A program made the translations under genes and the position numbers. From positions 1-34,836 of the forward strand of contig NZ_QKYN01000030.1 in NCBI RefSeq assembly GCF_003258295.1: a stretch of 34,836 nucleotides of DNA, read 5' to 3'. Source of the DNA: Streptacidiphilus pinicola. GTDB taxonomy: Bacteria > Actinomycetota > Actinomycetes > Streptomycetales > Streptomycetaceae. Below, piece by piece: positions 5,750-28,127 of this stretch. The notes beneath the pieces were generated by a model. It was not told the origin of the DNA, did not search any database, and saw only the letters and a program-made list of their open reading frames with translations. Each line of letters begins with the position of its first letter. Positions within the stretch are counted from its first letter, which is position 1.

Positions 5750-5770
5750 GGGTTCCTCGATCCGCCGCGG

Positions 5771-13772: not shown

Positions 13773-15686
13773 TCAGGTGGTGGTGGGCTGCGCGGGGATG
13801 GTCCCTTGTCGGTCGTGTTGCAGCCGCCACAGCTCGTGGAACAGGCCAGCCTTGTCGGCGACGAGTTCAGCGAAGGTGCCCTGCTGGATGATGCGTCCGT
13901 GGTCGAGGACCAGGACGCGGTCGGCCATGGCTACGTTGGTGAGGCGGTGGGAGACGAGGACGACGGCGCGGTCCTTCGCGGCGGTGCGGAGGTTGGCGAA
14001 GATCCAGTGTTCGGCGCGGGGGTCGAGCGCCGAGGTGGGTTCGTCGAGGATGAGGAGTCCGGCCGGTCGGTAGAAGGCGCGGGCGATGGCGATCCGCTGG
14101 AACTGGCCGCCGGACAGGGCTTCGCCGCCTGCCCAGTCGCGGGTGAGGAGGGTGTCCAGGCCGTTGCGGAGTCCGTCGACTACCTCGTCGGCGCTGGACG
14201 CCTGGCAGGCTGCGCGGATCGGTGTGTCGCCGCCGGGGAGGGGCTGGCCTTGGGTGATGTTCTGGCGGGCGGTGAAGGGCCAGCGGGCGAAGTCTTGGGG
14301 GACGACGGCGGTGTGCTTCCACGCCGCGTGCGGGTCGAGGTCGCGGGTGTCGGCTCCGTCCCAGGTGACCGCTCCGCTGGTGGGTAGGTAGAGGGCGGCG
14401 AGGAGCTTGGACAGGGTGGTCTTCCCGGAGCCGTTCTCTCCGACCAGGGCGACGACCTCGCCGCGCTTCACGCTCAAGGTCACGTCGGTGAGGGCGTCGC
14501 GGTGGGCTCCGTCGTAGCGGTAGGTCAGGTTCTCGGCACGGACCTCGTGCACGTCCTCGGGTTGGAGTGTGCCCCGTTCCAGCCGGTAGCCGCCCGCTTC
14601 GCGCAGGAAGTCCACCCAGTCCTGGAAGTACAGGCCGTTGCGGAACGCCTGCGCGCCGATGCTGGTGATGCCCTGCACGCCGGTGGCGACGGTGCGTAGC
14701 GCGAACACCGCGGCGCCTCCGGAGGCTGCGGAGATGCGTCCGGTGGCGAGGAGCCAGATCAGCGTCACCCACACCACCCCGGATGCGAGCCCGCCGAATG
14801 CCGCACCGATCAACGAGACCAGTGCTCCTGCGTCGGTGGCCTGGCGGTGGGAGGCGTGCATGCGGGCGCTGACGGCGCGGTAGCGGGCCATCAGGAACGG
14901 TGCCATCGTGCCGGTGCGGATTTGATCGGCGGTTTCCTGGTCGGCGAGGAACCAGCGCAGCAAGTACCGCATGCGGCTGTGGCTCATCACGCGCTGCCAC
15001 GCCAGGCGGGTGAGGGTGGCGGACCGGACCTGCGCCCAGCCCTGGGGGATGCTCGCGAGGGCCAGCAGCGGGAGGAGTACGGGGTGGATGGAGGCGAGGA
15101 CCGTGCCGCCTGCGATCAGGGAGACCGTCGCCGCGATGAGGTGCTGGGCGTTGTTGAACAGCTCGCCCGCCCACTCCGCGCCGCGCTCGGCGGCTTCCTT
15201 GCGGTCCCGGAACTTCGGGTTGTCGAACGCGGACAGTTCCACGTTCACCGCCGCCTCCGCGAACATCACCTCCGCCTCTTCCTTCACGACGGGGATGAGC
15301 CGCAGGGCGAGCCAGTTCGTGACGATCCCGAGCACAGCGCGCAGGCCGGCCGTGGCCACCAGGAGCGCGACGGAGACCCACGCGGACTCGAGTCGTGCGA
15401 TCACGTTCCCGGACGAGAACAGGGCCGCGATGGTCCCGGTCATCGCCAGCAGCCCGGTTGCCTGCGCCACCCCGGACAGCAGCTGGCTTGCGAGCAGCCC
15501 GGCGGTGGAGCGGCGATCCACCCTCCACGCGAGGGCGACGGCTCGGGCGGCAAGGTGGGGAACCCTGCGGGTCATGTGCCTGAGCGTCAGCGCCTGTAGC
15601 TGGTCGGCGTACTCGGTGCCGTCCTCAACGATCAGCAGATCGTCGTCCGCGTCCTGATGGGTGGTGGTCGGGGCTGCACCCGTCAC
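13773..15686 (-). CDS. ABC transporter, fused membrane and ATPase domains (exporter)
   Basis: The protein has 637 aa. The GTG start overlaps the Nudix gene stop as GTGA (15683-15686). An N-terminal membrane domain with about six segments (residues 60-330) is followed by the nucleotide-binding domain (383-620). Walker A is GENGSGKTT (416-424), the Q-loop is VVPQDFARWP, the signature is LSGGQ (524-528), Walker B is LLILDEPTSALD, and the H-loop is SHRL (579-582). This is the half-transporter exporter layout, working as a dimer. As the last gene in a long metabolic run it probably exports the product or confers self-protection; the substrate cannot be read from sequence. Confidence 0.9.
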   Translation of the reverse strand: MTGAAPTTTHQDADDDLLIVEDGTEYADQLQALTLRHMTRRVPHLAARAVALAWRVDRRSTAGLLASQLLSGVAQATGLLAMTGTIAALFSSGNVIARLESAWVSVALLVATAGLRAVLGIVTNWLALRLIPVVKEEAEVMFAEAAVNVELSAFDNPKFRDRKEAAERGAEWAGELFNNAQHLIAATVSLIAGGTVLASIHPVLLPLLALASIPQGWAQVRSATLTRLAWQRVMSHSRMRYLLRWFLADQETADQIRTGTMAPFLMARYRAVSARMHASHRQATDAGALVSLIGAAFGGLASGVVWVTLIWLLATGRISAASGGAAVFALRTVATGVQGITSIGAQAFRNGLYFQDWVDFLREAGGYRLERGTLQPEDVHEVRAENLTYRYDGAHRDALTDVTLSVKRGEVVALVGENGSGKTTLSKLLAALYLPTSGAVTWDGADTRDLDPHAAWKHTAVVPQDFARWPFTARQNITQGQPLPGGDTPIRAACQASSADEVVDGLRNGLDTLLTRDWAGGEALSGGQFQRIAIARAFYRPAGLLILDEPTSALDPRAEHWIFANLRTAAKDRAVVLVSHRLTNVAMADRVLVLDHGRIIQQGTFAELVADKAGLFHELWRLQHDRQGTIPAQPTTT

Positions 15687-16237
15687 AGGTTCTCTCCGAT
15701 CGGTGTTCCGTCCGGTCGGCGGCGCTGCACGGGCTCGTGCTGGAGGTACGCGGCGACCCCGCTCCGGCGTGCGGCGTCTGTGGCGGCGAGCAGCGTGTAC
15801 TCGCCCGGGTCCATGGCGGCACGCCATTCGTCCAGGCTGCGCACGGACAGGTCGCTGTGCTCGGTGGGGTCGAGCACGATCGCGTCGATCTGGTCGTCTG
15901 TGAGGGTGCCGCCATCGAAGGTGAAGCCGATGTGGCACAGCGGCCAGCCGCCGCCGACCGGAGCGAACGAGGTGGCCAGCAGCCGCGGCTCCCCAGCGAA
16001 GCGGATGCCGGTCTCCTCGAAGCACTCGCGCACGGCGGTCTCCCACGGCGTCTCACCCTTCTCGGTGTTCCCGCCGGGCCAGTCCCACCTGTCTGGGTCC
16101 AGGACCGAGCGCATCTGCATCGGCCGGCCTTGGGTGTCGGTGAAGAACAAGCAGCCGAAGAACGTCGCGTTGGCGATCGTCGTGACGTACTGGTCCGGGG
16201 GCAGCCACCCGTGTCCGGGGCTGGCCTCTTCAGTCAT
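15683..16237 (-). CDS. Nudix hydrolase
   Basis: The protein has 184 aa. A complete Nudix box is present: G56-x5-E62-x7-REcfEEtGI, reading GGNTEKGETPWETAVRECFE. Preceding residues DRWDWPGG are typical of the strand before the box. A C-terminal helix region (SLDEWRAAMDPGEYTLLAATD) follows. Nudix enzymes hydrolyse nucleoside diphosphates linked to another group; the substrate is unknown. It overlaps the second Nudix gene upstream (ATGA) and the ABC exporter downstream (GTGA). Two Nudix genes in tandem next to a nucleoside-like cluster suggest handling of nucleotide-linked intermediates or removal of damaged nucleotides. Confidence 0.88.
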   Translation of the reverse strand: MTEEASPGHGWLPPDQYVTTIANATFFGCLFFTDTQGRPMQMRSVLDPDRWDWPGGNTEKGETPWETAVRECFEETGIRFAGEPRLLATSFAPVGGGWPLCHIGFTFDGGTLTDDQIDAIVLDPTEHSDLSVRSLDEWRAAMDPGEYTLLAATDAARRSGVAAYLQHEPVQRRRPDGTPIGENL

Positions 16238-16725
16238 CGGGACTCCAGGTAGGCGGTGGGGCGTTCGCCGCGGTGGACCTGCGTGGCGGCGAGGAGGTTC
16301 CGGGCGTTGTACTGCTCCATCAGCCCGGATTCAGCGGCTTCCTCGGGTTCCCACCAGTGGTGGGCCAGGATCTCCCCGGCCGGCACGGCGATACGGTCGA
16401 CGTCGGCGGCGTCGATGGGGAGATGGAAGGTGAACATGTGACATGGGTAGGCGTAGGGGTTGTCGGTCGCTGCTCCCGGCCACAGTTCGGCGGCTGCGGT
16501 GAGCCAGCACACTGTCAACAGCTGACCGGCGATGCCGTTAACACCGACTTCCTCGCGGGCCTCACGCTCGCAACCCCGCTTCGGGGGCTCGTCGTGCTCG
16601 ATCTTGCCGCCCGGCAGGACCCACCGGTTCGACTTGGCGTGGTGTACCAGGAGCACGCGCCCGTCGTCGGGGTGTGGGATGTAGGCGGCTGCCGCTGCGG
16701 CGAACAGCGCACGTTCAGAACTCAC
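16234..16725 (-). CDS. Nudix hydrolase
   Basis: 163 aa from a GTG at 16723-16725, chosen because GGAGG lies 5-9 bases upstream; an ATG at 16750-16752 would add 9 residues with a weaker site. The Nudix box is complete: G40-x5-E46-x7-REareEvGV, with the preceding NRWVLPGGKIEHDE. The rest is a beta-rich fold with MFTFHLPIDAADVDRIAVP and HHWWEPEEAAESG. First gene of the Nudix-Nudix-ABC unit, separated by about 300 bp from the sulfotransferase gene. The exact substrate is unknown. Confidence 0.85.
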   Translation of the reverse strand: MSSERALFAAAAAAYIPHPDDGRVLLVHHAKSNRWVLPGGKIEHDEPPKRGCEREAREEVGVNGIAGQLLTVCWLTAAAELWPGAATDNPYAYPCHMFTFHLPIDAADVDRIAVPAGEILAHHWWEPEEAAESGLMEQYNARNLLAATQVHRGERPTAYLESR

Positions 16726-17032
16726 GGGGCCTCCACGGTCGGAATCGGGCATGCCTGTTGAAGCCTCAAGCAGCCCTGCCCGTAGACGAGTTGGGATGCC
16801 GAGGCGATGCAGTCTGCCGGGTGGGTCGGACAGTTGCGGGCATGTCGTGCGCGTCGGCACTCGAACGTGTGATCCCGTCCGTGTGTCGCTGGCGCGGGCG
16901 GCGCGGCAGGTGGTTGGCTCACCACACCGCCCGTGAGAGGTCAGTTCTCCGCGACGCTGCCGGGCTCGGCTTCGAGGGTGGCTCCGCGCCGCTCAGTACA
17001 CGATCGCTGGAGAAGCCTCTGCCCCTCGTTCG
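16726..17032. other. Intergenic gap within the metabolic block
   Basis: 307 bp between the sulfotransferase stop and the Nudix start, both minus strand. No plausible gene is visible. It probably holds a separate promoter for the Nudix-Nudix-ABC genes. A small stem-loop GTGGT/ACCAC (16910-16925) is the only structure I see. Confidence 0.5.
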
Positions 17033-18067
17033 TCATCGGGTCGCCGCCGGGTAAGGCTCGCGGATGCCGAGTGACTGGATCAGCCGCTGGATGCGGTCCA
17101 CCTCGCCCCGACTGTCGGCGAGCAGGTCGCGGTGGGTGACGTGGATGGTTCGCTCGGCCGGTGCCGCGTCGGTCGCGGCCGTGAACACCTCCCATGCCTC
17201 CTCCTCGGTCAGCGGGATGCCGCCCTGGTGGAAGCGGAAGTGGTTGCGGCGCATCGAGTCCGCCGTGCCGGCCTGGTCCCGTGTGATGGTCACGAACAGG
17301 GCCCGGTGGCCGGTGATGGCGTCGAGTTGCGGGATGCGAAGCGAGTTGAACGGCGACTTGGTGATGAAGGCGGGCCGGTCGAAGTGGGCGCAGTGGGCTT
17401 GGATGCTCGCGGTGAGAGTGAGCGGGTCTGTGAGTCCGGCCCGGGTGATCTCATAGGCGTGGCCACCGAGGTGCCGGTAGGTGGGGATGGTGCGGGCGTA
17501 CAGGTCTTCGGCTTCGTACGGCATGACCAGGCCGGGGATGAGGCGGGTGTTCTTGTTGTCGACGGCGAGCACGGTGTCGCTGATGGACTCGAAGGACTGG
17601 CGTGCGGGGTGGGCGAGGTTGCGGACGGGCCAGGCCCAGCAGGAGGCGGTGGTGAAGTAGGCGTAGTGGCCGGTGCTGGCGAGGACGTTGTAGAGGTGGC
17701 TGGTGCCGGAGCGCGGAGCACCGACGATGAACACGAGGGTGCGCGGCGTGTGGGTGGCCAGGGGACGCGGGGCGTAGGGGGCGCGGGCCTCGAGTTCCTG
17801 TCGGAGGTCGATGCCCTCGGCCGCGGCGATGTCCGCGCTGAACGGTGGCAGTTGGCCTGTGGCGCGGATCTGGTCGAGGGTGGCGGAGAGGTACGCGAGC
17901 GTCGCGGCGTTCGGCGTGATGCCCTGCGCGTACCTCTCCTCCAGGACCTCGGCCAGGACGTAGTGCCGGGGGTCGTCGGTGAACCTGTAGGCCCGGGTGC
18001 GGTACAGGGCGATCGCAGCGCCTTCGGGGTTGGGGTCTTTGAGCTGCGCATCGAGGTCGTGGATCAA
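17033..18067 (-). CDS. Sulfotransferase family protein
   Basis: 344 aa from a TTG at 18065-18067, which overlaps the phosphotransferase stop as TTGA and has GAGGA 4 bases upstream. No ATG or GTG lies nearby, and the open frame beyond is a shadow. The PAPS 5'-phosphosulfate loop reads VFIVGAPRSGTSHLYN (P-loop 116-123), and the 3'-phosphate motif reads TITRDQAGTADSMRRN (Arg263, Ser271). ITKSPFNSLRIPQL between them is typical of the Sulfotransfer_3 type family. It would transfer sulfate from PAPS to a hydroxyl or amino group of a small molecule or glycan. Last gene of the eight-gene run that starts with the epimerase. Confidence 0.85.
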   Translation of the reverse strand: MIHDLDAQLKDPNPEGAAIALYRTRAYRFTDDPRHYVLAEVLEERYAQGITPNAATLAYLSATLDQIRATGQLPPFSADIAAAEGIDLRQELEARAPYAPRPLATHTPRTLVFIVGAPRSGTSHLYNVLASTGHYAYFTTASCWAWPVRNLAHPARQSFESISDTVLAVDNKNTRLIPGLVMPYEAEDLYARTIPTYRHLGGHAYEITRAGLTDPLTLTASIQAHCAHFDRPAFITKSPFNSLRIPQLDAITGHRALFVTITRDQAGTADSMRRNHFRFHQGGIPLTEEEAWEVFTAATDAAPAERTIHVTHRDLLADSRGEVDRIQRLIQSLGIREPYPAATR

Positions 18068-18795
18068 CGGTTCCTCGCTTCGGCAGTGTCGGGGTTGCGC
18101 CAGGTGTGGATGTAGCCGTGCCGGCCGAGATAGGGGGCGGTAAGGATGTGATGGATCTCCATCCAGTCGCCCAGGCGTTCCGTGGTGCACGGGTGCGGGA
18201 CGTGCTGGTTGTAGGCGTTCAGCGCTCGCTGGATGGTGGTTTCGGCCAGCAGTCCGTGGGTCATGGCGGTGGTCATGCAGAGCTTGGCCAAGTCGTAGCC
18301 GAAGGGAGCCAAGGTCAGGTCGTCGAAATCGACCACGACGACGCCGGTATCGGTGACGAGGAAGTTCCTCGGGTTGGCGTCCTTGTAGAAAGCGGCCGAT
18401 TCGCTCGCAGCGGCCGTGAGGATGCTGCGCGCCTGCGTGGCCGTGATCGTCGGCGCGGGCACGGCCCCGGCGTCCAGCAGAGCTTGGACGCGCGCGATGC
18501 GGGGTGCGATGAACGCCGCCAGCTCCCCGGGGCCCGGCACCCGATAGGGCGCGTCGAGTCGCGCGCGGTGCAGTTCTGCACGGTGGCCGGCAGCGTGCGC
18601 CTCAGCGAGGACGACCGCGGCGGCCGGCAGGTCATCGGGGCCGACGTGATGCCCTGCGATGGTCTCGAAGCGCAGTGCCGCGCCTTGGCGGCGCAGTAGT
18701 CGCGGTACTGGCGTCCCGAGCCGGGCCAGCCACGCATGGTGCGCGCTGGCTTGCTCTGCGGCCTGGGCGCTGGGGTAGGTCTTGGCGAAGACCAA
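18064..18795 (-). CDS. Phosphotransferase (APH/choline kinase-like fold)
   Basis: 243 aa from a TTG at 18793-18795; the frame is open upstream but would overlap the methyltransferase. A short N-lobe keeps a lysine in VFAKTYPSAQ (Lys5). FETIAGHHVG forms the hinge, and the catalytic loop reads YKDANPRNF (Asp139, Asn144), with the metal-binding DFDD at 156-159. The usual His of HxDxxxxN is Lys here. The first strands of the N-lobe (Gly-rich loop) are missing, so it is shorter than typical aminoglycoside phosphotransferases. It may modify an intermediate, give self-resistance, or be a diverged homologue. It lies 14 bp after the methyltransferase gene and overlaps the sulfotransferase gene. Confidence 0.75.
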   Translation of the reverse strand: MVFAKTYPSAQAAEQASAHHAWLARLGTPVPRLLRRQGAALRFETIAGHHVGPDDLPAAAVVLAEAHAAGHRAELHRARLDAPYRVPGPGELAAFIAPRIARVQALLDAGAVPAPTITATQARSILTAAASESAAFYKDANPRNFLVTDTGVVVVDFDDLTLAPFGYDLAKLCMTTAMTHGLLAETTIQRALNAYNQHVPHPCTTERLGDWMEIHHILTAPYLGRHGYIHTWRNPDTAEARNR

Positions 18796-18809
18796 GGGGG
18801 CGGGCCCTT

Positions 18810-19640
18810 TCAGTGAGGGGCGGTGCCGATGAGGTAGCTGACGACGGACGATGTCTCCACCGGGCCGTCGGGCAGCACGGAACGGAGCTGGTGCGCGAGT
18901 GCGTCGGGGTCGCCAGCGAGTCCTTCGGGGAGCCGGTATTTGGGGGATGTGGCCAGGTAGGCGGCAGTGTGCGCAAGGTCGCGGAAGCGGAAGCGGTGCA
19001 CCTCGTGGTGAACGTGGCGGACCGTCAGGGCGTGGTCGGCGACGTCGCGCATGTTGGCGCTGTGGAATGCCCCGTACAGTCCCGTGCGCCGTTCGGCGTC
19101 CGGATCGAGGCCGGCCCGCGCAACGAGACGGTCCAGTGAGGCGTAGCTGTCGGCGGACTTGGTGGCGAGGATGACGGTCCCGTCCGGGTGCAGGCAGCGC
19201 ACGATCTCGCTCAGCACGCGGCGCGGGTCGGGCGCGTGGTAAAGGCAGAATGCGGCCACAGTCAGTGCCGTGCTGCCGTCGGCCAGTGGCAGGTGGTGGA
19301 AGTCCGCCTGGGCCGCCGTGGCGGCGGCACCGGTCTGCTCCAGGCGGGCGCGGGTGGCGCGCAGCATGGCCCCGGAGGCGTCGATGGCCACGATGCGGGA
19401 GCCGGGGAGCGCGCGGGTCAAGGCGAGGGTGGACGCGCCGCGCCCGCAGCCGATGTCCAGGACCGGCCGGCCGGGGCGCGGTCGTGCGCCGACGGCGTAC
19501 GCGGCGAGGACTTCGGGGGTGGCGCGCCCGGTGATCTTGGCGGCCATCAGCGCTCCGGTGCGGCTGGCGAGCCGGTCTCCGTCACGGTAGAGCACGCCGC
19601 CGACAAGGTGCGGGTCAAGGAACGGGGAAGGGTCAGCCAC
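18810..19640 (-). CDS. Class I SAM-dependent methyltransferase
   Basis: The protein has 276 aa, with a GTG start preceded by a GGGGGAG ribosome-binding site. Motif I is VLDIGCGRGAS (60-70), the acidic end of strand 2 is RIVAIDASGAML, and motif II/III is AAQADFHHLPLADGS then LTVAAFCLYHAPDPRRVL, with LHPDGTVILATKS after it. This is the methyltransf_11/25 type acting on small molecules. The variable C-terminal part (190-276) is helical. It could methylate O, N or C of the cluster product. 33 bp separate it from the P-loop kinase gene upstream. Confidence 0.85.
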   Translation of the reverse strand: MADPSPFLDPHLVGGVLYRDGDRLASRTGALMAAKITGRATPEVLAAYAVGARPRPGRPVLDIGCGRGASTLALTRALPGSRIVAIDASGAMLRATRARLEQTGAAATAAQADFHHLPLADGSTALTVAAFCLYHAPDPRRVLSEIVRCLHPDGTVILATKSADSYASLDRLVARAGLDPDAERRTGLYGAFHSANMRDVADHALTVRHVHHEVHRFRFRDLAHTAAYLATSPKYRLPEGLAGDPDALAHQLRSVLPDGPVETSSVVSYLIGTAPH

Positions 19641-19673
19641 GGCTCCCCCTCTTCGCGAGGGTCAGGCCGGTGT

Positions 19674-20198
19674 TTAGGCGGCGGCCGTGATCTTGGCGTC
19701 GCCGATCTGGGCCAGCAAGGCTCTGGCCTGGCGTCGGCTGGTGATGCGGTAGACGGCGGCGTCGCGGGCGTGCTCCTGGATCAGTGCCACAACGCGCGGG
19801 GCCATGCTCTTGCGGTAGCCCCACACGTAGCGCAGGAAGCTCCAGGTGATCCGGTCGTAGACGCCGGTCGCATCGTTCTGGCCGCCGCCGTACCGGAGCC
19901 GCCGCTGGGCGATGCCCCACAGGCACACTCGCGCGGGAAGGTCCAGGAAGACCACGGTGTCGGCTCTGGTGAGCCGGATGGGGAGCGTGGCGGCGTAGTT
20001 CCCCTCGATCACCCACGACGGTGCGGCGACCAGCTCCTCTTGGATCGCGGCGAACTTCTCCTTGTCCAGCGCGTTCCATCCGTCGTCGTAGTACACGGCG
20101 TCCAGGTGCGTCACAGGTGCCTCGATGAGCTCCCCGAGGCGGTTCGACAGCCATGTCTTGCCACTGCCGCCGCAGCCGATGAGGGCGATTCGTTTCAC
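19674..20198 (-). CDS. P-loop kinase, adenylate-kinase-like (FlaR / topology modulation family)
   Basis: The protein has 174 aa, with a GTG start. Walker A is GCGGSGKT (8-15), followed by HLDAVYYDDGWNALDKEKF and the strand WVIEGNYAAT. TVVFLDLPARVCLWGIAQRR is the typical downstream region of this small P-loop family, often annotated as DNA topology modulation or FlaR-related. Homologues are probably small-molecule (nucleotide-type) kinases, and the topology name has little support. In this setting it could phosphorylate a nucleoside or sugar intermediate. Gap of 45 bp from the glycosyltransferase gene upstream and 33 bp to the methyltransferase gene downstream. Confidence 0.75.
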   Translation of the reverse strand: MKRIALIGCGGSGKTWLSNRLGELIEAPVTHLDAVYYDDGWNALDKEKFAAIQEELVAAPSWVIEGNYAATLPIRLTRADTVVFLDLPARVCLWGIAQRRLRYGGGQNDATGVYDRITWSFLRYVWGYRKSMAPRVVALIQEHARDAAVYRITSRRQARALLAQIGDAKITAAA

Positions 20199-20243
20199 GA
20201 GTAGGGACGCTATCGAGCCGGGTGAGGGGGACGAGGTAGGAAA

Positions 20244-21272
20244 TCACGATTCTCCCCCAAATCGACGCAAGCTTATGTTGATCGTTTGGACTTGTCGCGA
20301 CAGGCGGAAGGGATCCAGGCGCTCAAGGCAGCGCGTCAGTAAGCGCGTTCGCTCGCTCACGGTCATGGCGGCGACGGCGCGGGTGATATCGGTCACGTGG
20401 GCTCCGTCGTCCGCGTGGAGCTCGCCGGGGACGACGGTTCCCGCTCCCCGGTAGCGCGCCGGAACGATCGGTGCGCATCCGGACAAGACGGACTCGAAGA
20501 TGCGTTGGGTGTACTGGCCGGAGTTCACGTACCGGTCCGGGGCGAGTAGCACCGTGGCGTGCGCTTCCCGGTGCAGGGCGACGCCGTGCCGGAAGGGGAC
20601 GCGACCGATGAACCGCACGTGGGGCCAGCGGCCCGTGTCGGTCCACTTGCCCGCGACTACGTGGTCCAACTCCCGTGCTGGCGGGGCGAAGAACTCCCCG
20701 AACGCCCGGTCGCGGCCGTACTGGTTCCCGACGTACACCAGCGGCAGCCTGCGGCCGGTCGACGCGAGCGCGGCGGGATCAGCCTGATCGATTGCCCGGT
20801 CGGCGACGGGGAACAGCAGGCTCACGGCATGGTGCCGCGGGTACAGCGCCGGTTCGAGGACCGTGACGTGCGCCGTCTGCCGCAGCGGGTCGGCCGGGGC
20901 GAGCTGCTGATCCTTGTCCCACAGCAGCGCGGGCACGCCGAGGGTGTGCACGTAGTGGGCGATGAGCTGCTGCTGGCGGTGCAGGTCGCAGGTGTGCCCC
21001 AGCGTCCCGCACGGGCTGTCGTTACGGCCGGGGACGGGCCAGCGCCATTCCAGGAACAGCGCGTCGATGTCCGGCAGCCCCGCGTCCCACCCGTACGGCC
21101 CGCCGACGGGCGTGCCGGACTCGGCGCTATCGCGGTCGACCTGGAGGAACGTGATCTGGTGCCCGGTCTCGATCAGGCCGTCCACGAGCGCCTTGCGGTG
21201 GCTGCGTCCGCCGTCGGGGGTGTCGGTGATCCCGTCGCCGAGGAAGCCCCAGAAGCTGTAGCCGATCCTCAT
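20244..21272 (-). CDS. Glycosyltransferase (GT4/CgeB-like), contains a TTA codon
   Basis: 342 aa from the ATG at 21270-21272, which overlaps the carbamoyltransferase stop (ATGA) and follows GGAGGA closely. The N-terminal Rossmann-like half reads MRIGYSFWGFLGDGITDTP. The C-terminal half carries LVYVGNQYGRDRAF, HVRFIGRVPFRHGVAL and YTQRIFESVLSGCAPIVPA, where the E-x7-E-like region and the Gly-Cys-Ala-Pro turn match the nucleotide-sugar site of GT-B enzymes (Glyco_trans_1_2 type). A rare TTA leucine codon lies at 20340-20342, near the C-terminus, so translation should need the bldA tRNA. It probably adds a sugar to the cluster product. Confidence 0.78.
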   Translation of the reverse strand: MRIGYSFWGFLGDGITDTPDGGRSHRKALVDGLIETGHQITFLQVDRDSAESGTPVGGPYGWDAGLPDIDALFLEWRWPVPGRNDSPCGTLGHTCDLHRQQQLIAHYVHTLGVPALLWDKDQQLAPADPLRQTAHVTVLEPALYPRHHAVSLLFPVADRAIDQADPAALASTGRRLPLVYVGNQYGRDRAFGEFFAPPARELDHVVAGKWTDTGRWPHVRFIGRVPFRHGVALHREAHATVLLAPDRYVNSGQYTQRIFESVLSGCAPIVPARYRGAGTVVPGELHADDGAHVTDITRAVAAMTVSERTRLLTRCLERLDPFRLSRQVQTINISLRRFGGES

Positions 21273-22972
21273 GTCTCCTCCACCCACCAGCCCTCCAGCA
21301 AGAGGGCGTCAATGCCGGATTCGGTCAGGCAGTCCAGGGCGTGATCAGGGGTGCCGCAAATCGGCTTGCCCTTGATGTTCAGGCTGGTGTTGATCAGCAC
21401 CGGCACGCCGGTGATTGCCGCGAACTCGGACAGGACGGAGTGCAGGAACGGGTTGCGGTCGCTGTCGAGGGTCTGGACCCGGGCGAGGCCGTTGTCGTGG
21501 ACGACGGCCGGGATCATCTCGCGGGCGCGGTCGGTCACACCGCTGGCGAAGGACATGAACGGGGCGGCCTGCCTGAGGGTGAAGTACTGCCTGGCGTGCT
21601 CGGCAGTCACCACAGGCGCGAAGGGACGGAAAGGCTCGCGGAACTTCACTCGTGCGTTCAGCCGCTCCACCACCTCCGGCTTGAGGGGGGACGCCAGGAT
21701 CGACCGGTTGCCCAGCGCGCGGGGGCCGGCCTCCAGCGCTCCTTGGAACAGGCCGACGATCTTCCCCTGCGCCAGCTGCCCGGCCAGGTAGCGGGCGGCG
21801 TGTGCGGGTCGGTGCGCGGTCATGCCGGGCCGCGGCTGTGATCCGAGGTCCAGGCCGGGAAACTCGGGTCCCAGGTAGCAGCGCCCGTCCACGCCCTCCA
21901 CGAGTCGGGGAGCACGGGTCTGGTGGACGGCCAGCGCCGCGCCCGCAGCGGTGCCCGAGTCGCCCGGCGCGGGAGGGACGAACACCTCGTCATACCCCGC
22001 GCGCTCGACGATCTTCCCGAGGCTGACGCAGTTCAGGGCCACGCCCCCGCCCACACACAAAGCCCTCTGCCCAGTGCGGTGCCGAGCCTGGACGGCCAGG
22101 TGAACCATGACCTGCTCGGTGCGCTCCTGGAGTGCGGCGGCAAGATCGGCGTGGATCTGGCCGGGTTCCTCGGCCGGCATGCGGCGCGGGCAGGTCGCGG
22201 CCACGAACGCGGGCGACAGGCGCGGATACCGGCTGGACATGACCCGCAGCGGGAACCAGGAAGGATCCAGCGCGAAGGCGTCCGCGGTGATCGAGATGGC
22301 CTCGGCGAACAGGGCGCGGAACCGCGTCGGATCCCCGAGTGCGGCGAGCGCCATGACGGTGCCCTCCTCGTCGCCGCGCCGCCATCCCAGGTGCTCGGTG
22401 ACAGCCCCGTAGGCGTAGCCAAGGGAAGCGGGATCAGGCAGCGACCAGCGGCCCGTCAGGGCGACTCCCGCCGCTTCCCTGCGCGCGGTGCAGATGGACG
22501 TGGTGGTCGTCTCACCGAGGCTGTCCACCACCAGCACGGCGGCCTGCTCGAACAGGGACGCGGCGAACGCGTATAGCCCGTGGGCCCGATGGTGCTCCAC
22601 GCCGTGCAGGGCCGCGTTCGGGAAGCGCTGCCCGAAGGCTCGCAGCCGCTCGGACGCGCGCCCGTGGACCCGAAGGAAGCTCCGAACCCGGGGCAGCGCC
22701 CGGGGAGCTGTGGCCGGCCGAAGGTGCCACCATGGCGTCGCCCCGCGCAGGTACAGGCGCGGCGAGAAGTTGTACGCCACGTCCGTCACATCGGCGGCCG
22801 ACAGACCAGCAGTCCTCAGCAGCCACCCGACAGACCTTTCCGGGTACGCCTTGGTGTGCTTCTCGCCGTTGAGACGCTCCTCCTCCACCAGGCCAACCAA
22901 CGACCCGTCCATGATCAGCGCCGCCGCCGAGTCGTGCGTGCCCGAGCACAACCCCACCACTACCGGCTTCAT
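21269..22972 (-). CDS. O-carbamoyltransferase (NodU/CmcH/TobZ family)
   Basis: 567 aa from the ATG at 22970-22972, which overlaps the preceding stop as ATGA; longer in-frame extensions are shadow. The N-terminal Kae1/YrdC-like catalytic part has CSGTHDSAAAL (9-19), EEERLNGEKHTKAYP and the metal-binding EHHRAH (126-131). GGVALNC (309-315) and GDSGTAAGAAL (337-347) follow. The C-terminal domain has GPRALGNRSILASP (416-429), FREPFRPFAPVV and INTSLNIKGKPI. All family hallmarks are intact. The enzyme uses carbamoyl phosphate and ATP to form a carbamoyl ester on a hydroxyl of an antibiotic or sugar. Coupled to the thymidylate-synthase-like gene upstream and the glycosyltransferase downstream. Confidence 0.92.
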   Translation of the reverse strand: MKPVVVGLCSGTHDSAAALIMDGSLVGLVEEERLNGEKHTKAYPERSVGWLLRTAGLSAADVTDVAYNFSPRLYLRGATPWWHLRPATAPRALPRVRSFLRVHGRASERLRAFGQRFPNAALHGVEHHRAHGLYAFAASLFEQAAVLVVDSLGETTTTSICTARREAAGVALTGRWSLPDPASLGYAYGAVTEHLGWRRGDEEGTVMALAALGDPTRFRALFAEAISITADAFALDPSWFPLRVMSSRYPRLSPAFVAATCPRRMPAEEPGQIHADLAAALQERTEQVMVHLAVQARHRTGQRALCVGGGVALNCVSLGKIVERAGYDEVFVPPAPGDSGTAAGAALAVHQTRAPRLVEGVDGRCYLGPEFPGLDLGSQPRPGMTAHRPAHAARYLAGQLAQGKIVGLFQGALEAGPRALGNRSILASPLKPEVVERLNARVKFREPFRPFAPVVTAEHARQYFTLRQAAPFMSFASGVTDRAREMIPAVVHDNGLARVQTLDSDRNPFLHSVLSEFAAITGVPVLINTSLNIKGKPICGTPDHALDCLTESGIDALLLEGWWVEET

Positions 22973-23907
22973 CGAGCCGTCCTCCCGTCCAGCACCGCGT
23001 ACCAGTTGCTCAATCCCGATCCGAGGACGTCGGTCGCGGAAGCGACCATCTGCCGTGCGTCGGCCCGGTCTCCGCCCTTCCAAACTCGGTAGCTGCGCAT
23101 CACCTCCGCGAAGGCACCCCACGCGGACGGCGGCGTGCCCCCGGCGACGATCTGTTCCATCAGAGCGTCGAACGTCTCCCACGGCACGCCCAGCGGCTCC
23201 ATGGCACGGCTCGGTTGCGGAGCGGACAGGAGCGCGAGGGCGTCGGCGATGTTCTGCTGGTACAGGTGCAGCGAGTCCGCGTGGTGGTGGTACTCGCCCA
23301 GCTCCGCGCCGATCCAGTGGGCCATCAGCTCGTGCAGGATCGTCGCGGTGAAGATGTCGTAGCAGAACCCGAGCCACAGGTCCTGGCTGCGCATCGTGGT
23401 GTGCATCTCCAGTCGGCCGTCACGCAGGTAGAAGCGGTAGCCGAGGGTGCAGGGCACGTCGCTGTGGCCGGGGATGTCCCGGGCCGGGTTGTAGAGCTGG
23501 ACCAGGGCGCGGCGCGAGTCGGGGTCGGCGAGCAGCGTCCGGCGCACGTGGTCGATCTGGTCGACCTCGTCGAGGCCCTTGCGCCACGCCCTCATGCGTG
23601 GCCCGTACGCGCCGAGCAGCACACCGGCGTCGGTGTACTGGGCCATGCGTTGGTTGTAGGTGTAGATCCACGGCGCGTCAGAGCCGGACAGAATCCACAC
23701 CGCCTCGGCGGCGGCGAAGGCCGCGTTGAGCACCCGCGCGGGCGGTAAGTGGACCATCCGGCGGCGCGGCTGCGTCAGCGTCAGGTGCGCGCCGATGACC
23801 TCGGTGGTGGCCATGCCGCGCGGCTTGACCGCGCGCCCGTGTTCGAGCACGGCGGAGCATGCCCGGGTGAATAGCTCGTTGGCCGAAGCCGCCTCCACAC
23901 AGATCAT
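22969..23907 (-). CDS. Thymidylate-synthase-superfamily enzyme, predicted (hydroxy)methylase of a cytosine nucleotide
   Basis: 312 aa from the ATG at 23905-23907 (ATGA overlap with the epimerase stop); a longer open extension is shadow. The ThyA fold is recognisable: active-site Cys153 in VPCTLGYRFY, the phosphate/substrate segment RSQDLWLGFCYDIF (Arg173, Ser174, Asp176), and ADSLHLYQQN with His214 and Tyr216. The residue aligned with E. coli Asn177, which reads uracil, is Asp184. In T4 dCMP hydroxymethylase an Asp at this place selects cytosine, and the same change lets TS act on dCMP. The predicted product is a 5-methyl- or 5-hydroxymethyl-cytosine nucleotide, as in mildiomycin biosynthesis. 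The gene has a rare TTA codon (23746-23748), so it is likely bldA dependent. Confidence 0.82.
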   Translation of the reverse strand: MICVEAASANELFTRACSAVLEHGRAVKPRGMATTEVIGAHLTLTQPRRRMVHLPPARVLNAAFAAAEAVWILSGSDAPWIYTYNQRMAQYTDAGVLLGAYGPRMRAWRKGLDEVDQIDHVRRTLLADPDSRRALVQLYNPARDIPGHSDVPCTLGYRFYLRDGRLEMHTTMRSQDLWLGFCYDIFTATILHELMAHWIGAELGEYHHHADSLHLYQQNIADALALLSAPQPSRAMEPLGVPWETFDALMEQIVAGGTPPSAWGAFAEVMRSYRVWKGGDRADARQMVASATDVLGSGLSNWYAVLDGRTAR

Positions 23908-24893
23908 GCATGCCCCCTGGTCCCGTTGTGGTGCATCCATTCCCACTGGGCCGCGATCCCCTCGCGGGGCCACACCTGCGGCCGGTAGGCCAGCACCGTG
24001 CGTGAGAGTTCGAAGTCCGCTTCGGTCGCCTCTGGATCGCCGGACCGGGCGGCCACTTCCACGAACGGCACGGACCTTCCGGTGACCTCCGCCACCAGCT
24101 CCAGCAGCTCGCGCACGGACAGCGTGGCCGGCCCGGCCACGTTCACGGCTCGCCCGGTGAGCGCGGTGTGCTCGGCCCGCACAAGAGCGGCCACGACGTC
24201 GCTCACGTACGTGAAGTTCCTGCGCTGACTGCCGTCGCCGTACAGGCGCATCGCGCGCCCGGTGCGGACTGCGTTCAGCATCCTGGCTATCGCCATGTCC
24301 TCGCGCTGCCGGGGACCGTAGACCGTGAAGAAGCGCAACGCCACGACCTGCGTCGCCGCGTCGCGCCTGGCCGCGTAGGCGAGCGCGAGTTGTTCCGCGG
24401 CTAGCTTCGACACCCCGTAGGGCGAGAGGGGCCTTACCGCGCCGCTCTCGCTTGACGCGCCGCCTGCCGCGCCGCCGTAGACGCTTGACGAGGAAGCGAC
24501 CACCAGTCGCGGTACCCCCGCCCGCTCGCACTGCTCGATGAGCTGGTGGGTCGCGGTGATGTTGTCCTGCACGTACGAGGCGAAGTTCTTCCCCCAGGAC
24601 CCGCGCACGCCGGTCGCGGCGGCCAGGTGGAACACCGCGTCTACTTCGGCGAGGAGTTCTCCCAGGTGCGGGCCGGCCACGTCGACGTGCTCGAACGCGA
24701 AGCGAGGTGATCCGATGGCGTGGGCCAGGTTCCGGGCGGCCAGGCTGTCGCCGCTCGGCGAGCGCCGGTCCACCGCCCTGACGCGCCAGCCGCGCGCCAA
24801 GAGCTCGTCCACGAGGTGCGAGCCGATGAATCCTCCGGCTCCGGTCACCAGGGCCAAACGGTGCTCGTTGCTGTCCAAAGAAGCATCCTCCAT
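23904..24893 (-). CDS. NAD-dependent epimerase/dehydratase (extended SDR)
   Basis: 329 aa from the ATG at 24891-24893 (AAGGAA about 9 bases upstream). A TTG at 24873-24875, preceded by GGAGG, is an alternative. Glycine motif TGAGGFIG (17-24), catalytic SSSSVYG (134-140) and YGVSK (Tyr159, Lys163) are complete. NFTYVSDVVAAL and VNVAGPATLSV are typical of GalE/WcaG-type enzymes acting on nucleotide sugars. It would supply or alter the sugar used by the glycosyltransferase. The frame continues open upstream without a stop for another 113 codons; see the entry for 24894-25232. Confidence 0.87.
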   Translation of the reverse strand: MEDASLDSNEHRLALVTGAGGFIGSHLVDELLARGWRVRAVDRRSPSGDSLAARNLAHAIGSPRFAFEHVDVAGPHLGELLAEVDAVFHLAAATGVRGSWGKNFASYVQDNITATHQLIEQCERAGVPRLVVASSSSVYGGAAGGASSESGAVRPLSPYGVSKLAAEQLALAYAARRDAATQVVALRFFTVYGPRQREDMAIARMLNAVRTGRAMRLYGDGSQRRNFTYVSDVVAALVRAEHTALTGRAVNVAGPATLSVRELLELVAEVTGRSVPFVEVAARSGDPEATEADFELSRTVLAYRPQVWPREGIAAQWEWMHHNGTRGHA

Positions 24894-25232
24894 GCGGTGG
24901 GTTCCTTGCTTCCTGCTGCTCGGGCGCGCACGCGGGCGGACTTTCGAGGTGGCGACGCTGACCCTTCGGTCGCCCAAGTGGAGCTGGATGGTGCCGCCCA
25001 GCCAGTTGCCGGGGAGGCTTCGACCGGCCACGCAGAATTCAGGGGGGTTACGCGGGTGGCGGTCCAGGTCAGGGGCGCTGTGTGGGACAGGTAGGGCGTC
25101 GCCGGGTGGTTCCGGTTGGCCGTGGATGGTGATCCCGAGCAGAATGGCTGCGGCCACGTGTCCGCTCACCCACAGCGCTCCGAGGACTGTGCCTAACCGG
25201 TCGCGGTCGGGGGTCGCGTGGCGGGCACTCAC
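24894..25232 (-). CDS. Small membrane-segment ORF in frame with the epimerase, contains TTA codon
   Basis: A GTG at 25230-25232 overlaps the preceding small-gene stop as GTGA, so translation is probably coupled. About 113 residues follow before the epimerase Met: LGTVLGALWVSGHVAAAILL forms one membrane helix. Then comes a Pro-rich linker and PEFCVAGRSLPGNWLGG with basic residues. There is no stop between this and the epimerase. Either the epimerase has an unusual membrane-anchored extension (443 aa in total), or a separate small protein has lost its stop, for example by a sequence error. A TTA codon is at 25194-25196. Function unknown. Confidence 0.45.
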
Positions 25233-25410
25233 GACCAATCACCGCGCCGCGCCAGGACGGTGAGGTCGGCCGACTCCGCCCGGGGCTCCTCGGTGGTGCC
25301 GTGGCGCTGGCGCAGCACCAGGCCGCCACGGCGGACACGGGGACGACCCGTTCCGCACCGTCGGGAGCACGCACCAGGTCGCCGACTTCCGGCCGATCCT
25401 CCGCGCTCAC
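25229..25410 (-). pseudogene. Small gene with apparent 1-nt frameshift
   Basis: A GTG at 25408-25410 overlaps the upstream stop (GTGA) and opens MSAEDRPEVGDLVRAPDG. Coding character then moves to another frame, which reads RGGLVLRQRHGTTEEPRAE, then SADLTVLARRGDWS and a stop at 25229. The span is 182 nt, not a multiple of three; one extra base would make a 60-residue protein. The switch point lies at a CCCC run (GTCGTCCCCGTG on the minus strand). The joined protein resembles small beta-rich Streptomyces proteins that occur beside XRE regulators. Sequencing error or recent decay are both possible. Confidence 0.5.
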
Positions 25411-25645
25411 GGCTGGCCCTGGGTGCGGCGCTGGCGGGTGAGGTGGCTCCAGTGGGCGAGCTGCCGCATGCGGTGCGCCACCAGCTCCGCGCGCGCCACG
25501 TTGGGCACGAACACGGTGGTGGTGCCGGCAGGGACGGCGGCGGACGGGTACAGCCGCCAGGCGAGATGTACCCGGTGGCCGCTCGCGCCTGGGGGCGCGC
25601 TGGAAGCGCGTAGGTGGTGCGGGGATCCGTGGTGGTCACGGTCAC
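25407..25645 (-). pseudogene. Small gene with apparent 1-nt frameshift
   Basis: A GTG at 25643-25645 overlaps the upstream stop (GTGA) and opens MTVTTTDPRTTYALPARP. The sensible continuation is in another frame: GHRVHLAWRLYPSAAVPAG, then TTTVFVPNVARAELVAH, ending at 25407 with QRRTQGQP. The span is 239 nt, one base short of a multiple of three. The shift maps to a CCCCC run (GCGCGCCCCCAGG). Together the halves make about 79 aa. I do not know the function. The neighbouring gene shows the same kind of defect, which favours a sequencing artefact. Confidence 0.5.
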
Positions 25646-26019
25646 GCCACCGCGCGGCGCGGGGGCACGTACTCGAGGGTGGCACCTAGTGCGGCGAGTT
25701 CGCGGCGCAGCTCCTCGAACGCCGTCTCGTCGGCGGCGACCATGGCGCGGGTGCGGGTGATCACGGCGGTGACCTGGCGTTCCTGGATCAGCCCGAGGAG
25801 CCGTTGCCAGCCGTCCCGCTCCGTGAGGAGGTGTCCGCGGTTGCGGTCGCGGACGTCGGTGACGGTGTCCCAGCCGAGGACGTCGCGCGCGTACTCGGTG
25901 GCGGTGACGGCCATGAGGGCGGTGGACTCCAGCTCGCCGGTGCAGACGTACACCGCGGCGAGGGGTCGGCCGGCCGGGGTGCCGGCGGAATAGGGTTCGG
26001 CGGTGGTGGTGTGGCTCAT
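25642..26019 (-). CDS. Resolvase-like small protein without catalytic serine
   Basis: 125 aa from the ATG at 26017-26019. The pattern follows the N-terminal domain of serine recombinases: first strand LAAVYVCTGE, helix and GWDTVTDVRDRNRGHLLTER, then DGWQRLLGLIQERQVTAVIT, RTRAMVAADETAFEELRREL and ALGATLEYVPP. The R-V-S of the active site is C-T-G here, so recombinase activity is unlikely, and no DNA-binding domain follows. It is the first gene of the minus-strand chain of GTGA-coupled small genes leading to the epimerase, and is divergent from the XRE regulator. Possibly a regulatory or accessory protein. The fold match is inferred by eye. Confidence 0.6.
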   Translation of the reverse strand: MSHTTTAEPYSAGTPAGRPLAAVYVCTGELESTALMAVTATEYARDVLGWDTVTDVRDRNRGHLLTERDGWQRLLGLIQERQVTAVITRTRAMVAADETAFEELRRELAALGATLEYVPPRRAVA

Positions 26020-26050
26020 CGGTACTCCGCTGGCGTGGTCGAGGGTGGGT

Positions 26051-26090
26051 GCCGTGCCCGCCTGCGACGGGGGGCGCGGGCGGGCACGGC
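26051..26090. repeat. 12-bp perfect stem-loop in divergent intergenic region
   Basis: GCCGTGCCCGCC (26051-26062) is exactly complementary to GGCGGGCACGGC (26079-26090), with a 16-nt loop. It lies 32 bp upstream of the 26019 start, inside the probable leader of the minus-strand chain. It could be an attenuator or an operator. Confidence 0.5.
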
Positions 26091-26217: not shown

Positions 26218-26249
26218 ACCGGAAATTTGGGAGCCAGGGTTTTTCCGGT
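26218..26249. promoter_or_regulatory. Operator-like inverted repeat ACCGGAAA / TTTCCGGT
   Basis: A perfect 8-bp inverted repeat (26218-26225, 26242-26249) lies 40 bp upstream of the XRE regulator start and in the shared upstream region of the divergent 26019 gene. The arms are 24 bp apart centre to centre. It is a natural candidate for autoregulation by the XRE protein; this is inference. Confidence 0.45.
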
Positions 26250-26289
26250 CAGCTGTGACGCCGATCACCTCAGCGCTACCGTCGCAGGT

Positions 26290-27573
26290 ATGACGGGGCA
26301 GCAGGAACTGAACGCGGCGCTGGCCCAGCGCATGACCGATCTGGGCCTCACGCAGCAGGGATTAGCCGACCAGGTTAACGCGGAGCTGCGCGCCGCCGGG
26401 CGGCGAGACACCGTTGGTGACCGGACGGTGCGGCACTGGCTGAGCGGAAAAACCCGGTGCCCGCAACCCGCGCAGCTGGCCGCGCTGGCGGCAGTATGCG
26501 GTTGTCCGGCCGACGCGCTCGGCTTCCGCCTCAAGAACCATCCCGCTCACGCCGCTGTCCCGACTGCCCCCGCCGAGGTAGAGCCTGTGCACCGCCGCTC
26601 GTTCCTGCACGTCGTCACCAGCGCCGCCCTGTCCCCGGCCGTCGCTGCACCGAGCCGCATCGGGATGAGCGACGTGCGCCGCCTACAGCGCCAGTTCGCG
26701 CAGATCGTCGCCGATGACCACGCTCACGGCGGCCGGACTTCCACCGAGTACCACGCCCTGGCCCTGGCCGAAGAGGCCATCGAGCTGCAGGCCCAGGGCG
26801 GCGCGACGCAGCGAGTACGGGCCGCCTTGTACGGGACGGCCGCCGCGTTCGTGTCCTCGGCGATGTGGGCCGCCATCGACTCCCGCCGCTTCGACACCGC
26901 AGCTGGGCATCGCGACCGCGCGGCCGCCCTTGCGGCCATGTCCGGGGACCAGGGCATTCAGTTCCGTGTCTGGTCCCACGCGGGGAGCCTGTACCGGCTC
27001 ATGGGCCGCCCAGCTGATGCGCTGGCCGCCAACGACGTAGCGCGCGCCCTGCCGATCGCCCGCCGTGACCCGCTGTTCGCGTCGCTGGGTCATGCCCGGC
27101 ATGCCGCGATCCTCGGTCTCACGCGGGATCGGCCAGCCGTGGACCGGGCCCTCGGTCGCGCCCAGGCCGCACTGGGCCGCGCAGACCCCGAGCAGCAGCG
27201 CCCGTTGTGGCTGACGGCGTTCTACGACCAGGCGGAGTTGGACTCCCTCGCTCTGACGTCGTACCTCGCCGCTCGGCGGTACGAGGAAGCCGAGGCTCGC
27301 GCGCACCGCTCTCTGGCCGCCCGGCGGGGTCATCTGCGGCGCTCGAACGTCATCACCAACGCGCGGCTGGCCCGCGCGCAGCTCGGGCAGGGCGACGCCG
27401 ACGCCGCCGTGCACACCGCGGTGGCGCTGCTCCGCGGGGAGGGCGCTCGGCATCCTCGCGTGGTCCGGGCGTTGGGCCACCTCACCGAGACCCTGCACGC
27501 CACCGCTCCCGGGTCCGCGGCTGAGCGGGCCTGGGAGGATCACTGGATCGCCGCACAGAGAGGATCCGCATGA
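26290..27573 (+). CDS. XRE-family regulator with TPR-like sensor domain, contains TTA codon
   Basis: 427 aa from the ATG at 26290; an in-frame ATG at 26227 would precede the likely promoter. An N-terminal helix-turn-helix spans about 8-80 (RMTDLGLTQQGLADQVN, TVRHWLSGKTRCP). A hydrophobic segment RRSFLHVVTSAALSP (102-116) is typical of actinomycete XRE-TPR regulators. Helical repeats from about 125 to the end (AAGHRDRAAALAAM, GSLYRLMGRPADALAAND, LAARRYEEAEARAHRSL) form a TPR-like array. A rare TTA codon at 26362-26364 sits inside the DNA-binding domain, so the regulator itself should be bldA controlled. A likely pathway regulator for the divergent gene block. Confidence 0.85.
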   Translation: MTGQQELNAALAQRMTDLGLTQQGLADQVNAELRAAGRRDTVGDRTVRHWLSGKTRCPQPAQLAALAAVCGCPADALGFRLKNHPAHAAVPTAPAEVEPVHRRSFLHVVTSAALSPAVAAPSRIGMSDVRRLQRQFAQIVADDHAHGGRTSTEYHALALAEEAIELQAQGGATQRVRAALYGTAAAFVSSAMWAAIDSRRFDTAAGHRDRAAALAAMSGDQGIQFRVWSHAGSLYRLMGRPADALAANDVARALPIARRDPLFASLGHARHAAILGLTRDRPAVDRALGRAQAALGRADPEQQRPLWLTAFYDQAELDSLALTSYLAARRYEEAEARAHRSLAARRGHLRRSNVITNARLARAQLGQGDADAAVHTAVALLRGEGARHPRVVRALGHLTETLHATAPGSAAERAWEDHWIAAQRGSA

Positions 27574-28127
27574 CCAGCTCGACAGCAGCAGGCGCGCGCA
27601 TCGCGATCGAGCACCACACCGACCTCCGGCCCGTGCGGCAGGTGATGTTGGACGTGTACGCGGACGTGCGGCGCGATCTGATCCACCTGCCGCACTACAG
27701 CGTGGACGCCTACGCCGAGCGCTTGGACCGTCATGCCGCCGAGGACGGCTGGGAGGCGGTGATCGGCTATGACGGCGTCGAGCCGGTGGGCTACGGCTAC
27801 TGCAACACCGTGCGCGCCGGGGACCGCTGGTGGCAGCGCATGGAACTACCGCTGCCGTCTGGCTGGGAGGAGGCTGCGGCGATCGCGTTCAAGGAACTCG
27901 GCGTGCGCCCGGCGTGGCGCAAGACCGGTGTGTCTGTGCGCCTGCACGATGCTCTGCTGTCCAAGCGGGGCGAGGAGCGCGTCACGCTCCTGGTTAATCC
28001 GGCGGCAGGTGACGGCAAGGTCCAGGCCCTGTACGCCAGCTGGGGTTATGAGCCGTTCAACCGGCAGACCCCCAGCCCTGGCTCTCCGCCGCTCGTCGCC
28101 ATGGCCCGCGCCACCCGCCCGAGGTAG
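27570..28127 (+). CDS. GNAT-family acetyltransferase
   Basis: The protein has 185 aa. The ATG overlaps the XRE stop (ATGA), so the two genes are coupled. The fold follows GNAT: helix 1 (PVRQVMLDVYADVRRDL), strand pair WEAVIGYDGVEPVGYGY, a core region WRKTGVSVRLHDALLSKRG that corresponds to motif A, then RVTLLVNPAAGDGKVQALY and ASWGYEPFN. The acetyl-CoA pyrophosphate loop (Q/RxxGxG/A) is partly degenerate (WRKTGVSV). The substrate is unknown. It may provide resistance or act with the regulator. Confidence 0.8.
   Translation: MTSSTAAGARIAIEHHTDLRPVRQVMLDVYADVRRDLIHLPHYSVDAYAERLDRHAAEDGWEAVIGYDGVEPVGYGYCNTVRAGDRWWQRMELPLPSGWEEAAAIAFKELGVRPAWRKTGVSVRLHDALLSKRGEERVTLLVNPAAGDGKVQALYASWGYEPFNRQTPSPGSPPLVAMARATRPR

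Follow-up and report, generated by a model that had tools for sequence, protein, structure and literature searches.

A conserved seven-gene cassette of actinobacteria, possibly for a small molecule built on a C5-modified cytosine nucleotide

The sequence analysed here, called the window throughout, is a 34,836 nt stretch of Streptacidiphilus pinicola DNA (contig NZ_QKYN01000030.1, handled as contig C155 of a host genome assembly of 8.43 Mb in 281 contigs). Seven of its genes, at 18064-24893, form a conserved and uncharacterised actinobacterial cassette, a result that is held with confidence. They encode an epimerase (EPI), a member of the thymidylate synthase superfamily (TS), a carbamoyltransferase (CT), a glycosyltransferase (GT), a small kinase (KIN), a methyltransferase (MT) and an aminoglycoside-phosphotransferase-like kinase (APH), and in the window they are followed by a sulfotransferase gene (SULF). 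With moderate confidence, the core and SULF are read as a chromosomal small-molecule pathway in which a C5-modified cytosine nucleotide of the 5-(carbamoyloxymethyl)(deoxy)cytidine type would be formed and tailored. We are fairly confident that the cassette starts from a cytosine nucleotide; what it makes, and whether a free nucleotide or a nucleic acid serves as acceptor, is uncertain.

Relatives of the cassette were gathered by scanning a GTDB-based genome collection for TS, with 24 aligned TS relatives as the query; 102 relatives were confirmed and the best 80 kept. Their loci, fetched with two peptide patterns, extend at most 10 kb beyond TS and some stop at contig ends, so that gene counts are lower bounds. 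The locus titles name 22 genera, which we take to be actinobacteria, and also include unnamed actinobacterial bins. By tblastn, relatives of EPI, CT and GT are each present in 78 of the 80 loci, of KIN in 76, of APH in 74 and of MT in 72. Wherever delimited, TS, CT, GT, KIN, MT and APH stand in an identical order in all 80 loci (trivially so in L037 and L041, where TS is alone), and all six are delimited in 65. EPI lies on either side: 37 of the 78 loci that have it carry it upstream of TS, and 41 carry it downstream. Among the flanking genes, tblastn relatives of SULF occur in 3 loci (L009, L010, L038), of the two Nudix hydrolase genes NUDX1 and NUDX2 in 3 and 4, and of the half-transporter gene ABC in 2. 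The initial annotation had placed a cluster for a decorated pyrimidine-nucleoside metabolite at 13773-26019, with sulfation, Nudix enzymes and export as general parts, and this interpretation is borne out in part. Its multi-enzyme block is kept together in relatives rather than scattered, and its pyrimidine core is supported below; its boundaries are too wide for the conserved unit, SULF is a subtype gene, and enzymes with relatives in only 2 to 4 of 80 loci do not qualify as general parts.

Fifteen of the 80 loci are incomplete. L016, L017, L025, L029, L030 and L037 reach the contig end 56-5,241 bases after TS, L073 has TS and CT but breaks off inside GT, and in L034 MT is seen by tblastn but not delimited. 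MT gives no tblastn match in 8 of the 80 loci, in five of which (L028, L036, L039, L057 and L066) its neighbours are present. L013 has no KIN between GT and MT, and tblastn finds none there either. L041 carries TS without CT, GT, KIN, MT or APH for 10 kb downstream, and in the same locus TS has the changes R132P and H214Y. L041:7782-18498 holds a decayed-looking cassette with this TS, an epimerase and a second APH gene, then genes that by eye resemble BREX pglW/pglX.

The seven genes also diverge together. Protein distances, computed over 64 loci (60 for EPI), gave 21 pairwise correlations with rho of 0.68-0.87, values that were not attained in any of 100 label permutations. At E <= 1e-40, GT was found in 2 of 396 genomes of the phylum sample, with five first-look candidates scored per genome, and in 3 of 14 genomes of the genus, the host's own genome being counted in both. 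The cassette is thus a conserved block with a patchy distribution, as taken to mark sporadic secondary-metabolite clusters, and such occurrence together with a strict internal order is the pattern of a horizontally moving biosynthetic cluster. In a Salinispora mooreana locus (L140), Replic_Relax and serine recombinase genes lie about 9-10 kb after TS, behind the cassette.

The nature of the starting nucleotide can be approached through TS. In a profile search its best solved relatives are two sequences of MilA, a cytidylate (CMP) 5-hydroxymethylase, at E 4e-50, with the next protein at 7e-25. The catalytic residues Glu68 and Cys153 (MilA Glu68 and Cys155) are invariant in all 81 TS sequences. 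So is the cytosine-selecting Asp184, an Asp replacing Asn, though this residue forms part of one of the two patterns used in the search, which partly builds in its invariance. Asp at the base-recognition position is the cytosine determinant that separates cytosine from uracil enzymes (PMC5175136, PMC6400193). Judged by these residues, the base modified is probably cytosine. As for the sugar, Lys133 and Ala176 of MilA favour CMP, and the K133R/A176S exchange reverses the preference to deoxycytidylate, dCMP (PMC5175136). The window TS has R132 and S174, the deoxy-type pair, and not the ribose-type Lys133/Ala176 of MilA and BcmA; by this comparison it is more likely to act on dCMP than on CMP. 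Arg132 is kept in 80 of the 81 sequences. Position 174 divides into 43 Ser and 38 Gly, almost along the line between the two gene arrangements: the 34 delimited EPI-upstream loci all have Ser, and of the EPI-downstream loci 36 have Gly and 5 have Ser. A role of TS as the essential thymidylate synthase was rejected: TS is of the cytosine type, and a ThyX gene is present elsewhere in the host genome, so that TS need not make thymidylate (dTMP). A TS profile found no second TS-family gene in the host genome. A TS 77% identical to that of the window is on record under the name Streptomyces venezuelae.

CT directly follows TS. It is full-length, and its nearest solved structures are 9s2t, a decarbamoylnovobiocin carbamoyltransferase (E 2e-84), GdmN and TobZ. 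Carbamoyltransferases of the NovN, GdmN and TobZ type have antibiotic sugars or cores as substrates. On modified phage contigs, TS domains of the Asp type have been reported alongside carbamoyltransferase domains, and one such carbamoyltransferase, once purified, turns 5-hydroxymethylcytosine (5hmC) into 5-carbamoyloxymethylcytosine, whether the base is part of DNA, of RNA or of free 5hmdCTP and 5hmCTP (PMC8670742). Here such a pair shares one contig and adjoins with a 4-bp overlap, CT accompanying TS in the 78 loci counted above. By analogy, the overlapping pair suggests 5-carbamoyloxymethyl-(d)CMP as an intermediate. The modified pyrimidine nucleotide of the initial annotation may thereby be narrowed, through Asp184 and the TS-CT pair, to a probable cytosine derivative leading to 5-carbamoyloxymethylcytosine. 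Further carbamoyltransferase matches occur in the host genome on other contigs (C13, C89 and C269).

Gene presence, gene order, co-inheritance, conserved catalytic residues and a predicted fold are the observations on which the proposed pathway is built; from them we infer all substrates, the order of steps and the product. TS would first hydroxymethylate C5 of a cytidylate, in the window more likely dCMP on account of its residues. CT would then carbamoylate the base hydroxymethyl to give 5-carbamoyloxymethyl-(d)CMP, or else a hydroxyl of a sugar added later. EPI would supply a UDP-hexuronic acid (UDP-galacturonic or UDP-glucuronic acid, UDP-GalA/UDP-GlcA), which GT would transfer to the nucleoside or to its hydroxymethyl; the sugar added is probably a hexuronic acid. 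KIN and APH may phosphorylate and MT may methylate the product, with SULF sulfating it in the window subtype. The N-glycosidic bond would be kept, unlike in mildiomycin.

Comparisons of the single enzymes are informative to different degrees. The nearest solved structures to EPI are MoeE5 (6kv9, E 2e-74) and 6zl6 (3e-62). At E 0.001 GT has no Pfam match, and a sequence search of the PDB gave nothing meaningful. PF13524 is found in many GT homologues. Structure prediction gives GT a GT-B fold, with T4 beta-glucosyltransferase, a DNA-modifying enzyme, as the top structural match. Against a viral fold library GT retrieved assorted, mostly unnamed or generic glycosyltransferases, and one named DNA beta-glucosyltransferase at rank 23. 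KIN is likewise without a Pfam match. It resembles NCBIfam PRK08118, 'DNA topology modulation protein', at E 5e-45, which is below the model cut-off, and otherwise matched only generic P-loop enzymes, weakly. For SULF, a PDB search reaching up to E 1 gave no match.

Several points weigh against the proposed pathway. Not every step appears to be obligatory, because MT is absent in five loci that have its neighbours, and KIN in L013. The distance correlations speak for shared inheritance rather than function, because host relatedness contributes to them. The invariance of Asp184 is in part a product of the search, as said, and the Ser/Gly split at position 174 implies that sugar preference may differ between subtypes. 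The fold of GT identifies neither donor nor acceptor, and its top match belongs to DNA modification. Finally, the exporter is not conserved, with an ABC relative in the two loci noted.

The same enzymes could produce a nucleoside small molecule with another order of decoration, CT acting on the transferred uronic acid, as on moenomycin-type sugars, and the hydroxymethyl made by TS carrying the sugar. This is possible, if unlikely. It would accord with MoeE5 as the nearest solved relative of EPI, with the antibiotic sugars or cores on which the nearest solved relatives of CT act, and with GT, whose top fold match, T4 beta-glucosyltransferase, glucosylates the hydroxymethyl of 5hmC (PMC8670742). 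However, since TS and CT directly overlap by 4 bp and a 5hmC carbamoyltransferase has been published, the base hydroxymethyl is the simpler acceptor.

A nucleic-acid hypermodification pathway carried on actinobacterial chromosomes, whereby modified (d)CMP would be phosphorylated by KIN and incorporated, or CT and GT would act on DNA or RNA, is considered doubtful. A TS scan of viral contigs yielded 48 relatives at 28-40% identity, and 47 of these share with the window TS the dCMP-type Arg/Ser/Asp set, the Asp being partly pattern-selected. PHROG phage families exist for EPI, TS and CT, the phage carbamoyltransferase works on DNA and RNA (PMC8670742), and the top structural match of GT, from T4, points the same way. 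Defence genes stand near some copies: a Gabija pair beside the block in the window, the BREX pglW/pglX-like genes (by eye) beside L041, and type I methyltransferase, CRISPR, ThsB or RmrA genes among some flanking open reading frames (ORFs) elsewhere. A T4-like chromosomal pathway, in which 5-carbamoyloxymethyl- or glycosylated 5-hydroxymethyl-deoxycytidylate would enter DNA or RNA or would act as a decoy or antiviral nucleotide, with defence systems beside some copies, is accorded a slim chance. The 48 viral TS loci contain no other window gene, except for one epimerase of 25% identity 9 kb away.

A phage or plasmid origin of the block was rejected, since GT has no match in 50,697 phage records and none in plasmid records, and two peptide patterns found no cassette-type CT in viral contigs. 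Distant matches of the TS family (below 60% identity) occur in 2,486 phage and 183 plasmid records, and those of the CT family, under the same limit, in 141 phage records, mostly of cyanophages, and 323 plasmid records. The 120 flanking ORFs of the EPI-upstream loci include scattered mobile and defence genes, no Pfam family being found in more than four ORFs. A defence-island reading was rejected as well, no PADLOC family among the 25 of 112 families listed occurring in more than two of these 120 ORFs.

A surface or cell-wall glycan pathway with an incidental or misassigned TS-like gene is very improbable: an epimerase, a glycosyltransferase and a GT-B-like 624-amino-acid protein in 40 of the 80 loci are typical of glycan loci, but TS is central in the operon, keeps its catalytic residues, co-diverges with the other genes and has altered residues in L041, where the rest is missing, and no flippase or polymerase was found among the ten conserved neighbour families scanned.

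The neighbouring genes differ in part between the two arrangements, with EPI upstream of TS or, in the second, downstream. The 624-amino-acid protein is encoded directly upstream of TS in the second arrangement (e.g. L050:8130-10004) and in none of the EPI-upstream loci. A representative has no Pfam match, and its predicted GT-B/2-epimerase-like fold (predicted local distance difference test, pLDDT, of 78) does not reveal the product of the pathway. A histidine phosphatase (His_Phos) is present in 58 of the 80 loci and a second APH in as many, both of them in either arrangement; APH- and phosphatase-type neighbours suit a small molecule. An AdoHcyase-like NAD protein is present in 29 loci and another Nudix protein in 24, the latter near the 10-kb locus edge. 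Where the second arrangement occurs, the cassette is followed by genes for an AdoHcyase-like NAD protein, a Nudix hydrolase and, further downstream, a CTP_transf_3 cytidylyltransferase (L050:18525-20218, L138:14417-15193), which together perhaps provide a CMP-activated building block. The window groups with L009 and L010 in a sulfotransferase branch, where identity to the window is 63-81% for EPI to MT, 62 and 55% for APH and 71 and 65% for SULF.

The features of the window are collected in Table 1. All enzyme classes listed in the initial annotation are present on the minus strand, only GT and KIN being without a Pfam match, and no polyketide synthase (PKS), nonribosomal peptide synthetase (NRPS) or terpene synthase is among the Pfam matches in 13773-26019, in agreement with that annotation for this span. 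Transcription on the minus strand would proceed from EPI through TS, CT, GT, KIN, MT and APH to SULF, then NUDX1, NUDX2 and ABC. The mostly 4-bp overlaps described earlier hold for six of the ten junctions of these 11 genes (EPI/TS, TS/CT, CT/GT, APH/SULF, NUDX1/NUDX2 and NUDX2/ABC) and at the other four the genes stand 45, 33, 14 and 307 bp apart, 307 bp being the distance from SULF to NUDX1, with the start codons of NUDX1, SULF and ABC chosen by the analyst.

Table 1. Genes of the cassette, its flank and the divergent strand in the window
Feature	Coordinates	Strand	Assignment	Basis
EPI	23904..24893	-	NAD-dependent nucleotide-sugar epimerase, probably UDP-hexuronate 4-epimerase	PF01370 E 3e-53
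TS	22969..23907	-	predicted cytidylate-type 5-hydroxymethylase, thymidylate synthase superfamily	PF00303
CT	21269..22972	-	TobZ/NovN/GdmN-type O-carbamoyltransferase	PF02543 + PF16861
GT	20244..21272	-	GT-B glycosyltransferase, CgeB-like kind	predicted fold
KIN	19674..20198	-	small P-loop kinase, candidate nucleotide kinase	Walker A GCGGSGKT in translation
MT	18810..19640	-	S-adenosylmethionine (SAM)-dependent methyltransferase	Methyltransf_25 PF13649 E 5e-21
APH	18064..18795	-	aminoglycoside-phosphotransferase-like kinase	PF01636 E 3e-13
SULF	17033..18067	-	sulfotransferase, subtype gene	Sulfotransfer_3 PF13469 E 3e-14
NUDX1	16234..16725	-	Nudix hydrolase 1, probably outside conserved pathway	PF00293
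NUDX2	15683..16237	-	Nudix hydrolase 2, probably outside conserved pathway	PF00293
ABC	13773..15686	-	half-transporter, possible exporter, not conserved	PF00005; MsbA/HlyB-like below cut-offs
XRE-type regulator	26227..27573	+	divergent, possible pathway regulator	HTH_31 E 3e-4, below cut-off
Gene 3' of XRE regulator	27570..28127	+	GNAT-like	by eye, no Pfam match

Relatives of the divergent regulator and of the gene 3' of it occur, among the 80 loci, only in L009, the former at 26% identity, upstream and on the opposite strand, and the latter at 30% beside it. The ORFs at 25229-26154 have no Pfam match and no relative in the 80 loci; they include a small ORF at 25642-26154 with a good codon pattern. 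Beyond the divergent genes, homologues of the Gabija anti-phage pair are encoded on the minus strand (GajA, 31024-32622, E 1e-197; GajB, 30003-31181, E 2e-109), adjoined by a DUF6602 / PD-DExK-like protein at 28863-29870. At the other end, a minus-strand gene run at 1630-13343 resembles, by eye from its translations, a gene set for a Tad/Flp pilus or for type II secretion, with TadE-like, CpaF-like ATPase and prepilin peptidase-like proteins plus a LysM/BTAD-like protein.

The gene combination, which had not been recognised at first reading as a known cluster, has no report in the open-licence (CC0/CC BY/CC BY-SA) literature of PubMed Central, a search that could have missed a subscription paper. 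In the same literature 5-carbamoyloxymethylcytosine occurs in one paper only, where the modification was found through phage metagenomes. The accessible part of a paper on a xinaomycin producer contains a single glycosyltransferase knock-out and describes no cluster (PMC4139839). Novelty as a nucleoside-type cluster is provisionally proposed. With a TS-carbamoyltransferase pair inside a tailoring cassette of 22 named genera, enzymes known mainly for disguising viral DNA would also serve bacterial biosynthesis. The set EPI-TS-CT-GT-KIN-MT-APH could be used by genome miners as a marker of clusters of this type, where no PKS, NRPS or terpene gene is seen, and the cassette reading predicts an intermediate of definite and easily sought mass, with a calculated [M+H]+ of 301.11 for 5-carbamoyloxymethyl-dC and 317.11 for the ribonucleoside. 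The natural Ser/Gly split at position 174 makes the choice between ribose and deoxyribose in the TS enzyme family directly testable.

Among known systems, mildiomycin and bacimethrin biosynthesis (MilA, BcmA) are alike in that MilA is the nearest solved TS relative and the cytosine Asp is conserved; they differ in that MilA and BcmA carry the ribose-type Lys/Ala and the window TS Arg/Ser. We know of no carbamoyltransferase of the CT kind in mildiomycin. The cassette contig, in addition, has no N-glycosidase of PF05014, which we take to be the MilB/BlsM family. Among 11 cassette genomes PF05014 gave two weak matches, one just over the cut-off (G007 C2) and one below it (G000 C99), neither on the cassette contig, so that release of the base in the manner of mildiomycin is unlikely. 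A mildiomycin/blasticidin-type cluster was rejected for the lack of a linked PF05014 N-glycosidase and for the deoxy-type TS residues. MilB itself belongs to the nucleoside 2'-deoxyribosyltransferase family (PMC4081090). The phage pair of TS and 5hmC carbamoyltransferase resembles the cassette in having a cytosine-type (Asp) TS beside a TobZ-family carbamoyltransferase (PMC8670742); here, by contrast, the pair is chromosomal and embedded with EPI, GT, KIN, MT and APH. The T4 5hmC system offers analogous enzyme classes in its dCMP hydroxymethylase and its beta-glucosyltransferase, the top structural match of GT, but GT shows no sequence relation to it, no phage context was seen, and extra tailoring enzymes are present here. 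That system also includes a deoxynucleoside monophosphate (dNMP) kinase. The nearest solved relatives of EPI and CT are, respectively, MoeE5 of moenomycin and the NovN/GdmN/TobZ carbamoyltransferases, enzymes that serve other scaffolds.

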